Below, piece by piece: positions 40,391-42,293 of a stretch of 64,000 nt of DNA. This DNA is from an uncultured Tateyamaria sp. Lineage in GTDB: Bacteria > Pseudomonadota > Alphaproteobacteria > Rhodobacterales > Rhodobacteraceae. The notes below the pieces were generated by a model. The model was not told the origin of the DNA. It searched no databases and saw only the letters and a program-made list of their open reading frames with translations. Positions within the stretch are counted from its first letter, which is position 1, and the number at the start of each line of letters is the position of its first letter. The DNA lies in assembly GCF_947503045.1 (NCBI RefSeq), contig NZ_CANNCF010000002.1:961501-1025500 (forward strand), in the 5' to 3' direction. Both the position numbers and the translations under genes were made by a program.

Positions 40391-40570
40391 GTGAAACGTA
40401 TCATTGCTTTCGCCACGCTTGCTGCGCTGATGGGCGTTGCCGGTTGCGGCACAACGACAGATGAGGTCACCCGATCCGAGGCGGCCCCCCTCGGTATCTT
40501 CGGGATCAAACCCGATCACAGCGGTGCCACGTCGACCCGATCCTCGATCGATCTGTTGTCCCTGACCTAA
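40391..40570 (+). CDS. Short lipoprotein, unknown function
   Basis: A ~59-residue product with a lipoprotein signal (IIAFATLAALMGVAGC, Cys about residue 19) followed by a short Thr/Ser-rich mature part. I favour the GTG at 40391 (VKRIIAF), since Lys-Arg then the hydrophobic core is the standard signal-peptide start; a TTG at 40379 would add MDRK. Its stop overlaps the stop of arfB on the opposite strand. The upstream region holds GTCAGGAAAT twice, 26 bp apart (40260-40269 and 40286-40295). Confidence 0.55.
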   Translation: MKRIIAFATLAALMGVAGCGTTTDEVTRSEAAPLGIFGIKPDHSGATSTRSSIDLLSLT

Positions 40571-40989
40571 TCCGTCGGATTCACGCGACCGCGCATAGCC
40601 TTGACCTCTCCGCGCACCTTTTTGGCCTTGAGCCTGCGTTTCTTGGACCCCAGCGTGGGCCGGGTCGCAATGCGCCGCTTGGGCGCCACCAACGCTTTTT
40701 CGATCAGTTCCGCCAGACGTTTGCGTGCGATGTCGCGATTGCGCGCCTGACTGCGGGTTTCATCACATTGGATGATCAGCGCGCCCTCTTGTGTCCAGCG
40801 GCGTCCTGCCAGCCGCTTGAGACGGGTCTTGACCGGACCGGGCAGGTTCGGGGAGCGCGCCGCCTCAAAGCGCAACTCGACCGCCGTGGCGACCTTGTTC
40901 ACGTTCTGACCACCCGGGCCTGAGGCGCGCACGAATTGCTCGCTCAATTCCCAGTCTTCGATTGTGATGGTGTCGTTGATCCGCAGCAT
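40567..40989 (-). CDS. arfB: ArfB, alternative ribosome-rescue peptidyl-tRNA hydrolase
   Basis: ArfB (YaeJ) enters stalled ribosomes and releases the nascent chain. The 140 residues show the release-factor motif ASGPGGQNVNKVATAVELRF, with GGQ at about residues 25-27, and the long Lys/Arg-rich C-terminal tail (RRIATRPTLGSKKRRLKAKKVRGEVKAMRGR) that lies in the empty mRNA channel. It lies 20 bp after the VOC gene on the same strand, and both lie downstream of the structured leader at 41386-41559. Confidence 0.95.
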   Translation of the reverse strand: MLRINDTITIEDWELSEQFVRASGPGGQNVNKVATAVELRFEAARSPNLPGPVKTRLKRLAGRRWTQEGALIIQCDETRSQARNRDIARKRLAELIEKALVAPKRRIATRPTLGSKKRRLKAKKVRGEVKAMRGRVNPTD

Positions 40990-41009: not shown

Positions 41010-41366
41010 TCAGGCTAGTCTGCCGGACACGCTGACCGAATTGCCGGCGGGATCCTTGGCGTTGGCAAACACATAGCCATCTGCCGTGTGCAGGGGGCCG
41101 AACTCAAGCCCTTTGGCACGTGCCATATCGCAAAACGCGGCGACATGCTGAATGGCGAACACCAGTTTGACCAGCGTCTGGCCCTGTTTGCGCCCCTTGC
41201 CCATCTGGCGCAACAGCAGGGTCACGCCCGGGCCGGGTGGACGCAATTCGACGATCCGGTCCCCTTCTTCAATGTGCACTGCGTAGCCGAAATGGTGGGT
41301 GTAGAACGCGGCCATCTCGTCGATGCGTGATGTGTAAAGAACGAGGCTGCTGAGTGGCGGAGAAAT
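41010..41366 (-). CDS. VOC-family (glyoxalase-like) protein with probable ATT start
   Basis: A small protein of the vicinal-oxygen-chelate fold: SSLVLYTSRIDEMAAFYTHHFGYAVHIEEGDRIVEL is the first beta-alpha-beta-beta unit and FGPLHTADGYVFANAKDPAGNSVSVSG the second. A start at the first ATG (41315) would remove the first strand. The frame upstream contains no ATG, GTG or TTG before a stop, but an ATT at 41364-41366 has AAGGAG exactly 8 nt upstream and yields ISPPLSSLVLYTS, the normal family N-terminus. I therefore propose ATT initiation, giving ~118 residues. The substrate is unknown. It is read with arfB. Confidence 0.65.
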   Translation of the reverse strand: MSPPLSSLVLYTSRIDEMAAFYTHHFGYAVHIEEGDRIVELRPPGPGVTLLLRQMGKGRKQGQTLVKLVFAIQHVAAFCDMARAKGLEFGPLHTADGYVFANAKDPAGNSVSVSGRLA

Positions 41367-41385: not shown

Positions 41386-41413
41386 AAAAAGGGCCACCCA
41401 TTCAGGCGGCCCT
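41386..41413 (-). terminator. Strong intrinsic terminator upstream of the VOC gene
   Basis: On the minus strand AAGGGCCGCC-tgaatg-GGTGGCCCTT forms a 10-bp stem (one G-U) with a 6-nt loop and a T5 run. It lies between the structured leader and the ribosome site of the VOC gene, so VOC-arfB transcription from the leader must read through it. This is an attenuator layout, or the end of a separate small RNA. Confidence 0.8.
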
Positions 41414-41487
41414 TCTCGAAATGTTTCGGAGGTTGTGTCGGTTAGGTCAACCGACCAACTTGGCGGTCCTCACCGCGCGGGGCTGCC

Positions 41488-41544
41488 CTAGCAGGCGACC
41501 TCCCAAGTTGTTCCGACACCTCTCTCCAATACCTTTCTTGACAC
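41488..41544 (-). CDS. Candidate 18-residue leader peptide
   Basis: GTG start with GGAGG 7 nt upstream, inside the longest possible anti-16S match. It encodes VSRKVLERGVGTTWEVAC and stops at TAG. The last six codons lie in the left arm of the first leader stem, so a translating ribosome would open it. A second frame (from the GTG of GGAGGTG) is also open for about 36 codons but has no ribosome site of its own. Whether the peptide is made is unknown. Confidence 0.45.
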   Translation of the reverse strand: MSRKVLERGVGTTWEVAC

Positions 41545-41604
41545 TGGATCACCTCCTTTACATTTGTTGAACTCATCCCCAGCTTTGCACAGCCGAGTCA
41601 AAAG

Positions 41605-42234
41605 TCAACGAATTTCGGCAGGTGTGGCCATGCGTGCCGTGATCGCGCGAAATGGTGCCAAAGCAATGAGCGCAAGCGTCAGTTTGACCGCCCAGTCGGC
41701 GATGGCCAGCGACACCCAGAGCGGAGCCAGCGGGCCAACCCCGAGGATCGGCAGGATTTCACCGGCCCAGGCCACGTCATTGGCAGGCTCGATAAAAGTC
41801 AGGCTGGCCGAGAAGGCGATGGTAAAGAACAGGGCGGTGTCCACGGTGCTGCCGATCAGGGTCGAGACCAGCGGCGCCTTCCACCACACCCCTTTGCGCA
41901 GGGCGGCAAAGATCCCAACGTCTAGCAGCTGTGCGGTGAGGAACGCGAGGCCCGAGCCGATGGCGATGCGCAGCGTGACCAGCGGGCCAAATTCGCCCAT
42001 GATCTGCGTGCCGATGAGCGAGCAGATGACCCCCACGACAAAGCCTGCAAAGACCACCGTGCGCGCCGGACCTGCGCCATAGACCCGGTTCATGATATCC
42101 GTCACCAGAAAGGCGAGCGGATAGGTGAACGCCCCCCATGTCAGCCAGTTGCCGAACAGGTATTGGACGAGAATGTTGGAGGCCACCACGATGGCGGCCA
42201 TGGCGATGATGCCGGGAAGATGTGCGCGTGTCAT
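41605..42234 (-). CDS. yhhQ: Queuosine precursor transporter (YhhQ family)
   Basis: A 209-residue inner-membrane protein with about six hydrophobic segments and YhhQ/DUF165 signatures: ASNILVQYLFGNWLTWGAFTYPLAFLVTDIMNRVYGAGPARTVVFAGF, LRIAIGSGLAFLTAQLLDVGIFAALRK and APLVSTLIGSTVDTALFFTIAF. E. coli YhhQ imports the 7-cyano/aminomethyl-7-deazaguanine precursors of queuosine. I start at ATG 42234 (MTRAHLPG); an in-frame ATG seven codons earlier is also possible. A TTGACT hexamer overlaps its stop codon and could belong to the leader's promoter. Confidence 0.9.
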   Translation of the reverse strand: MTRAHLPGIIAMAAIVVASNILVQYLFGNWLTWGAFTYPLAFLVTDIMNRVYGAGPARTVVFAGFVVGVICSLIGTQIMGEFGPLVTLRIAIGSGLAFLTAQLLDVGIFAALRKGVWWKAPLVSTLIGSTVDTALFFTIAFSASLTFIEPANDVAWAGEILPILGVGPLAPLWVSLAIADWAVKLTLALIALAPFRAITARMATPAEIR

Positions 42235-42293
42235 AATATATGCCCGTTTTTGCAAGGTAGCGGCGACTTGGTTCGAAGGTGAACTCGGGCCTC

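Follow-up and report, generated by a model that had tools for sequence, protein, structure and literature searches.

A structured small RNA with a short translated ORF: comparative evidence from Rhodobacterales and other Alphaproteobacteria

Comparison of 194 distinct loci (from 206), 93 of them from Rhodobacterales and 101 from other groups, shows at the level of sequence that, in a structured small RNA family, selection acts on initiation, on the length of the ORF and on where translation ends. One member lies on the minus strand of the window, the 64,000-nucleotide stretch of an uncultured Tateyamaria sp. genome analysed here. On comparative grounds its ORF is translated, and it lies within helices that covary, namely stem A, a stop-codon stem and, more weakly, a helix that we call P1. 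Because start, length and stop are kept and the peptide is not, the act of translation seems to matter more than its product. We consider it probable that the element is a translated, structured, mRNA-like small RNA gene, with a promoter-like sequence and a terminator of its own and a predicted RNA length of ∼165–190 nt, whose fold is gated by translation; the gating step and the output are what we infer.

Layout of the element and its relatives

A sequence-only reading of this DNA had described a leader, before a VOC gene and arfB, in which an anti-16S sequence, a short ORF, competing stems and a terminator were arranged as in translation-sensitive attenuation, and had left a free small RNA as the alternative. 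The observation is confirmed and the interpretation partly supported; the free small RNA fits best. The features are as follows.

41605–42255, minus: queuosine-precursor transporter gene (VUT family), upstream (TIGR00697, 90.4 bits, cut-off 50.95)
41581–41608, minus: promoter-like sequence, TTGACT (41608–41603), 16-nt spacer with TGTG, AAAGCT (41586–41581); recurs in relatives
41386–41559, minus: the element, including Shine-Dalgarno (SD), ORF, stems and terminator; from sequence reading, fold and relatives
41544–41559, minus: very strong SD, AAAGGAGGTGATCCAG, complementary to the 16S 3′ tail; from sequence and relatives
41488–41544, minus: 18-codon ORF VSRKVLERGVGTTWEVAC, GTG (41544–41542) to TAG (41490–41488); frame kept in relatives
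41525–41548, minus: start-codon hairpin, 41548–41540 with 41533–41525; from predicted fold and alignment of relatives
41456–41510, minus: stem A, CAACTTGG (41510–41503) with CCAAGTTG (41463–41456); from covariation
41465–41500, minus: stem C, round the stop codon, 41500–41497/41468–41465, 41494–41491/41476–41473 and 41488–41486/41481–41479; from fold and covariation
41437–41455, minus: stem B, 41455–41449 with 41443–41437; moderate covariation
41428–41433, minus: ACCTCC 3′ segment, pairing with the SD (41556–41551) in the predicted fold
41418–41537, minus: helix P1, codons 3–4 (41537–41534) with a pre-terminator segment (41421–41418); from covariation
41386–41417, minus: intrinsic terminator hairpin, 41417–41404 with 41399–41386, and T run; from covariation and fold
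41010–41366, minus: VOC/glyoxalase-family gene between element and arfB (Pfam Glyoxalase)
40567–40989, minus: arfB, alternative ribosome-rescue factor (NCBIfam ArfB, 186.9 bits, cut-off 100)

The promoter-like sequence (41608–41581) runs over the stop of the transporter gene, and a TTGAC + TGTG.CA...CT pattern is found repeatedly 5′ of the element in relatives; the start site deduced from it gives a predicted RNA 5′ end at ∼41570–41576. A generic promoter and terminator scan flagged neither end of the element, so both assignments rest on conservation. In the window as a whole, a tRNA/tmRNA search returned nothing, and no Rfam family reached its gathering threshold. The VOC gene apparently starts with ATT (41364–41366, minus), with AAGGAG upstream (ATTTCTCCGCCACTC); the relative L004 has ATG (ATGTCACCACCGCTC).

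The element's DNA was matched by blastn in 49 of 101 genomes, its own included. With up to two mismatches, the 19-mer AAGGAGGTGATCCAGTGTC was found in 239 of the 292 genomes of the order and 93 of its 112 genera, counts that are lower bounds, as against 3 genomes for the reversed-pattern control; across the class 92 of the 387 genomes had it (73 of the 264 genera; 3 genomes for the control) and 295 did not. Twenty Rhodobacterales genomes were negative in one search; 19 of these have arfB, and in 15 of the 19 a diverged element could be recognized by eye upstream of it. Inspected in the same way, the four other arfB loci (L232, L234, L240 and L241) revealed no element upstream; in L232, 43 nt separate arfB from the end of the transporter match. 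Besides Rhodobacterales, the exact motif occurs, among the matches listed, in Bradyrhizobium, Methylobacterium, Bosea, Microvirga, Ancylobacter, Devosia, Brevundimonas, Phenylobacterium, Caulobacter zeae and Falsiroseomonas.

Exact motif matches supplied 119 of the fetched loci. L091 (a duplicate of L001), L098, L222 and loci too near an end were dropped before comparison; L044, L107, L125, L150, L157 and L185 are non-Rhodobacterales and were counted in the other group, from which L151 was left out in the P1-deviant, codon and start-codon tests. Three contigs labelled as gammaproteobacteria (SAR92, Cellvibrionales) or an acidobacterium (L151, L180 and L222) carry the exact 19-mer; L151 and L222 are without the usual ORF and L180 is too near an end to judge, so that contamination or chance is possible. 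Two matches per genome, possible paralogues, were seen in G072, G098 and G220 with the family search and in G727 with the motif. Three loci (L068, L077 and L248) combine features of the Rhodobacterales form and the form of the other group, L068 encoding MSHGILEK... and L248 MSHGILES..., which supports common descent of the two.

Covariation, the terminator and arfB

The window's element folds with a z score of −6.06, none of 200 shuffles being equally stable. Covariation in Rhodobacterales was scanned over 633 window pairs in 64 non-redundant loci (of 89), with 300 partner permutations each that take no account of relatedness among loci (mean z 0.14, sd 1.7). Stem A ranked top (z 13.3), followed by the terminator (10.5) and the stop-codon stem (9.5; window pair p+61/p+76), which the sequence-only reading had not described; weaker signals came from P1 (5.2) and stem B (4.9). 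In a separate test over 89 loci, which left out the four of 93 without a recognized 3′ motif, stem A scored z 10.9, a value that none of 2000 permutations reached; stem B scored 4.3. The stems thus covary and the ORF is kept across Rhodobacterales, which that reading had named as a check on itself. Stem A, 8 bp as drawn and 7 bp in the predicted fold, has its left arm in codons 12–14, inside the ORF as had been claimed, and its right arm 3′ of the stop. Stem B, read as its competitor, is present and covaries moderately, and is missing from the minimum-energy fold of the window sequence, as is P1, which is 4 bp here.

The terminator had been read as a 10-bp hairpin before the VOC gene. It is there and it covaries, five of seven pairs being changed on both sides in 4 to 11 of 57 sequences; its length is instead 14 bp in the predicted fold, counting G-U pairs. 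The start-codon hairpin is near invariant, its first six pairs being kept in 53–57 of 57 aligned sequences. RNAalifold did not recover stem A, the region of which fails to align, when run on 57 of the 75 non-redundant sequences from Rhodobacterales, and on 49 other-group sequences it returned the terminator and three SD pairs only.

In the other group the scan covered 537 pairs in 81 loci, drawn from the 86 of 100 with a recognized terminator (mean z 0.6, sd 2.2). The terminator scored z 18.4, the next helix inward 12.2, and the position homologous to P1 9.7. Across the family P1 joins codons 3–5 to the pre-terminator segment; in 50 consensus-deviant loci of the other group its mean strength exceeded that of all 2000 permutations, and individually it was in the top 5% in 8 of the 50.

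Other pairings of the predicted fold have nearly constant arms. The SD pairs 3′ of the stop in the minimum-energy folds of 89 of 93 Rhodobacterales loci, the partner being YCUCC in 81; because both arms are nearly invariant, the SD–ACCTCC pairing is without covariation support. Of such folds in the other group, 54 of 101 leave the SD open, so masking does not extend across the class. For helix P2 (GTGTCGG with CCGACAC), whose arms are almost invariant too, z was 0.2 over the 89 loci and 1.8 in 17 deviant ones, a value reached in 71 of 2000 permutations.

For transcription attenuation, an alternative structure must form in competition with the terminator. When the 5′ arm of the terminator was scored against 87 windows upstream of it, z ranged from −3.7 to 2.5. 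An antiterminator formed between GGGCAGCCC, 3′ of the stop, and the terminator arm is possible on paper; the 27 pairs listed for it scored from z −2.7 to 2.3, and we rejected this candidate. The translation-sensitive attenuation proposed in the sequence-only reading is therefore not supported: the only covarying partner of the terminator's 5′ arm is its own 3′ arm.

In Rhodobacterales, 89 of the 93 loci have the transporter upstream of the element, and 84 have arfB downstream of it on the same strand. By a simple script that placed the end of the terminator, in L113 and L141 (two of the 34 closest loci) on weak hairpin scores, arfB starts within 40 nt of that end in 34 of the 84 loci, within 80 nt in 53, and at least 300 nt away in 16. 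The spacing in those 34 loci leaves no obvious room for a promoter, and terminator read-through into arfB probably occurs in Rhodobacterales. The VOC gene intervenes in 5 of the 84 loci, all of this genus, and so is not the regulated partner.

Outside Rhodobacterales, the promoter-like sequence, strong SD, start, 14–35-codon ORF, helix and terminator are kept amid varied genes. Neither arfB nor the transporter was found in the fetched flanks of the 101 loci, and no downstream gene is constant. There the element is free-standing with varied neighbours; in Rhodobacterales its place is mostly between transporter and arfB. Among genes downstream of it in the other group, the one that recurs most encodes a DUF188 protein (YaiI/YqxD family; nine loci, 9/9 confirmed by Pfam); it starts within ∼270 nt 3′ of the element in L031, L032, L034, L119, L120, L127, L144, L147 and L174, on the opposite strand in L147 and on the same strand in the other eight.

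We consider it unlikely that the element is a leader acting in cis, one that responds to translation and thereby controls read-through into arfB (with the VOC gene here). The synteny, the close spacing in many loci and the diverged elements upstream of arfB in 15 of the 19 seemingly negative genomes all speak for such a leader; against it stand the terminator arm without an outside partner, the four arfB loci without an element, the 16 loci in which arfB is far from the terminator, and the persistence of the layout in the other group. Since that layout is kept there without arfB in the fetched flanks, control of arfB cannot be the class-wide function; arfB may still be attenuated locally, as a side effect.

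Translation of the ORF

The minus-strand ORF of 18 codons is real and conserved, with that length in 89 of the 93 Rhodobacterales loci. In this and the following counts the statistics are inflated by relatedness of the loci: the 86 distinct ORFs of 18 codons end in TAG (46), TGA (23) or TAA (17), and TGG, which differs by one base from two of these three, was seen at the stop position 0 times as against 12.3 expected from column frequencies; in the other group all 100 loci have ORFs of 14–35 codons, as compared with a mean of 32% (maximum 46%) in shuffled sequence. The remaining two frames have a broad spread of lengths. The start codon is GTG in 176 of 193 loci, ATG in 16 and TTG in one. In the 15 diverged loci, which were found via arfB and not via the motif, the ORF has 18 codons in ten, 13 in two, and 22, 23 and 24 once each.

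Codon changes give a different picture of the peptide. Third codon positions are no more variable than first or second positions, and the crude nonsynonymous/synonymous ratio is ∼1.1 in Rhodobacterales and 2.1 in the other group; no purifying selection on the peptide overall is apparent from these ratios. By part, again from crude counts in Rhodobacterales, the ratio is 0.33 for codons 2–12, which may reflect constraint on the RNA or on the peptide, and 2.9 for codons 13–18. Covariation in the form of stems A and C runs through the latter codons and can account for their nonsynonymous changes.

These statistics disfavour a function at the level of the peptide, and we hold it distinctly unlikely that the RNA is nothing more than an mRNA for a small functional peptide, its structure being incidental. 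Such an mRNA would account for the conserved start, stop and frame, for the low ratio in codons 2–12 and for the well-kept LE (codons 6–7) and VGT (codons 10–12) of Rhodobacterales, and it would suit ten Bradyrhizobium-type loci with a near-constant 14-residue peptide; it is countered by a peptide that differs between the two groups and inside the second, by overall ratios that are not low, and by the change in codons 13–18 that follows the stems. The ten loci (L129, L134, L139, L140, L149, L158, L159, L175, L192 and L193) encode VSxxKRCHLAGIAR, their codons include the 16S-tail-like TCACCTC, and they are the sole group with a constrained-looking peptide. In a diverged subgroup 5′ of arfB (L235, L236, L239, L244 and L247), AAAGGAGGTG is closely followed by ATG and the peptide reads MIIGKQEQ... 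or MSIGIQEQ...; the ORF has 18 codons in L235, L239 and L247, 22 in L236 and 23 in L244.

The SD itself (41559–41544) bears out the 16-nt complement of the 16S 3′ end that had been claimed. The tail used for this comparison is the general alphaproteobacterial one, because a search with RF00177 found no 16S rRNA gene in four genomes (G000, G003, G054 and G069), some of whose assemblies are nearly complete. The exact 13-mer AAGGAGGTGATCC occurs at one place in the 4.74 Mb of genome searched, which is without 16S genes, and at 12 more with one mismatch; the opposite strand of 16S genes should carry it as well. In the 15 diverged Rhodobacterales copies AAAGGAGGTG is retained, and the remainder of the SD and its distance to the start codon vary. 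It is very doubtful that the RNA is a ribosome decoy, with a long SD and a short, signal-free ORF that sequester 30S subunits at initiation or stabilize the RNA by keeping ribosomes on it. In its favour, 175 of the 193 loci, which as a set lean towards the motif, are complementary to the assumed tail over at least 14 nt, and the SD sits very near the predicted RNA 5′ end. Against it, the diverged copies shorten the match, down to AAAGGAGGTG and a few bases, yet keep start codon and ORF, a gene present once would have to be expressed very strongly, and a decoy needs no fixed stop.

The translated small RNA that we prefer could work as follows. With no ribosome, the Rhodobacterales RNA would be closed, its SD paired to the 3′ ACCUCC and its start codon held in the hairpin. 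Ribosome loading would melt P1 and the start hairpin. A ribosome at the stop codon would cover codons 13–18 and ∼12 nt beyond, and hence the left arm of stem A and the stop stem; on reaching the fixed stop it would melt both, freeing their right arms and favouring stem B. The RNA probably acts through its own stability or base pairing, and in Rhodobacterales terminator read-through probably feeds arfB as well. A broader proposal is tentative and, as a whole, unlikely: that this is a class-wide alphaproteobacterial RNA device in which translating the short ORF, and not the peptide, is the signal, refolding upon ribosome loading and upon termination at the fixed stop reports translation capacity, and Rhodobacterales have wired it to ArfB.

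It is unusual for the ribosome-binding site, the start and stop codons and the length of an ORF all to be kept through much of a class when the peptide is not, and this suggests that ribosome traffic on the small RNA is itself under selection. The position before arfB in Rhodobacterales lets feedback of ribosome state on a rescue factor be tested.

Comparison with known systems

Leader-peptide attenuators have nested stems and an intrinsic terminator, both shared by the element, and the translated leader ORF expected of a translation-dependent attenuator is present on comparative evidence. Unlike them, the element has no supported antiterminator, no run of one regulatory codon in its ORF and, outside Rhodobacterales, no constant downstream gene. 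To our knowledge the element has no known target. It resembles rnTrpL/peTrpL of S. meliloti in that a short translated ORF sits on the small RNA that carries it (excerpt of PMC10117765), and Rhodobacter Pos19, a dual-function coding sRNA, in being, as far as the available extract on Pos19 goes, a small RNA of ∼200 nt with an ORF; unlike dual-function coding sRNAs such as Pos19, its peptide is not conserved. SEP1 of S. meliloti (23 aa; also PMC10117765) is at most a candidate homologue.

In the open-licence literature searched, the exact motif strings and the peptide strings had no match, the neighbour-gene terms led to no paper, and among the papers listed no description of this element, or of its conserved translation without a conserved peptide, was recognized. 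Small RNAs of Ruegeria (PMC4809877) and Paracoccus (PMC5107571) are given, in the excerpts available, without a means of mapping them to this locus. Of Caulobacter, an excerpt of Schrader 2014 (PMC4117421) states that intergenic ncRNA regions are not translated, yet that two earlier-predicted ncRNAs are.

The closest named system is Rfam CC2171 (RF01867). Rfam had been suggested as a place to look, and there is a full-length match to this family, over model positions 1–159 of 159 with large internal gaps, at a score of 33.1 bits (E 1.9e-5 for 401 bases) that falls short of the gathering threshold of 75. The window's element is the only match of RF01867 in this genome; the model matches 39 of 190 class genomes, 7 of them above the cut-off. 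CC2171 and the element have the same order of parts, with CAACAA and AAAGGAGGUGAUCCAGUGUC near the 5′ end and a terminator at the 3′ end. Unlike CC2171, Rhodobacterales copies carry stem A, the stop stem and CTAACCG...ACCTCC internally; the internal domain of the other group is a CATTGTC/GACAATG helix, unlike that of the Rhodobacterales copies. Landt 2008 is reportedly the Caulobacter discovery paper. One additional covarying pair is credited to CC2171 in Rfam 15 (excerpt of PMC11701678), and transcription of the family is supported by MH_s33 of Mesorhizobium huakuii, which is annotated as RF01867 and is a 215-nt transcript by RNA-seq (excerpt of PMC5596092). On sequence grounds we take the element to be a distant Rhodobacterales branch of a class-wide family with one named relative, CC2171. 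In Rfam that relative is of type sRNA, an ORF figuring in neither its name nor its type; it would have to be redefined as an RNA that is translated and more widely distributed.
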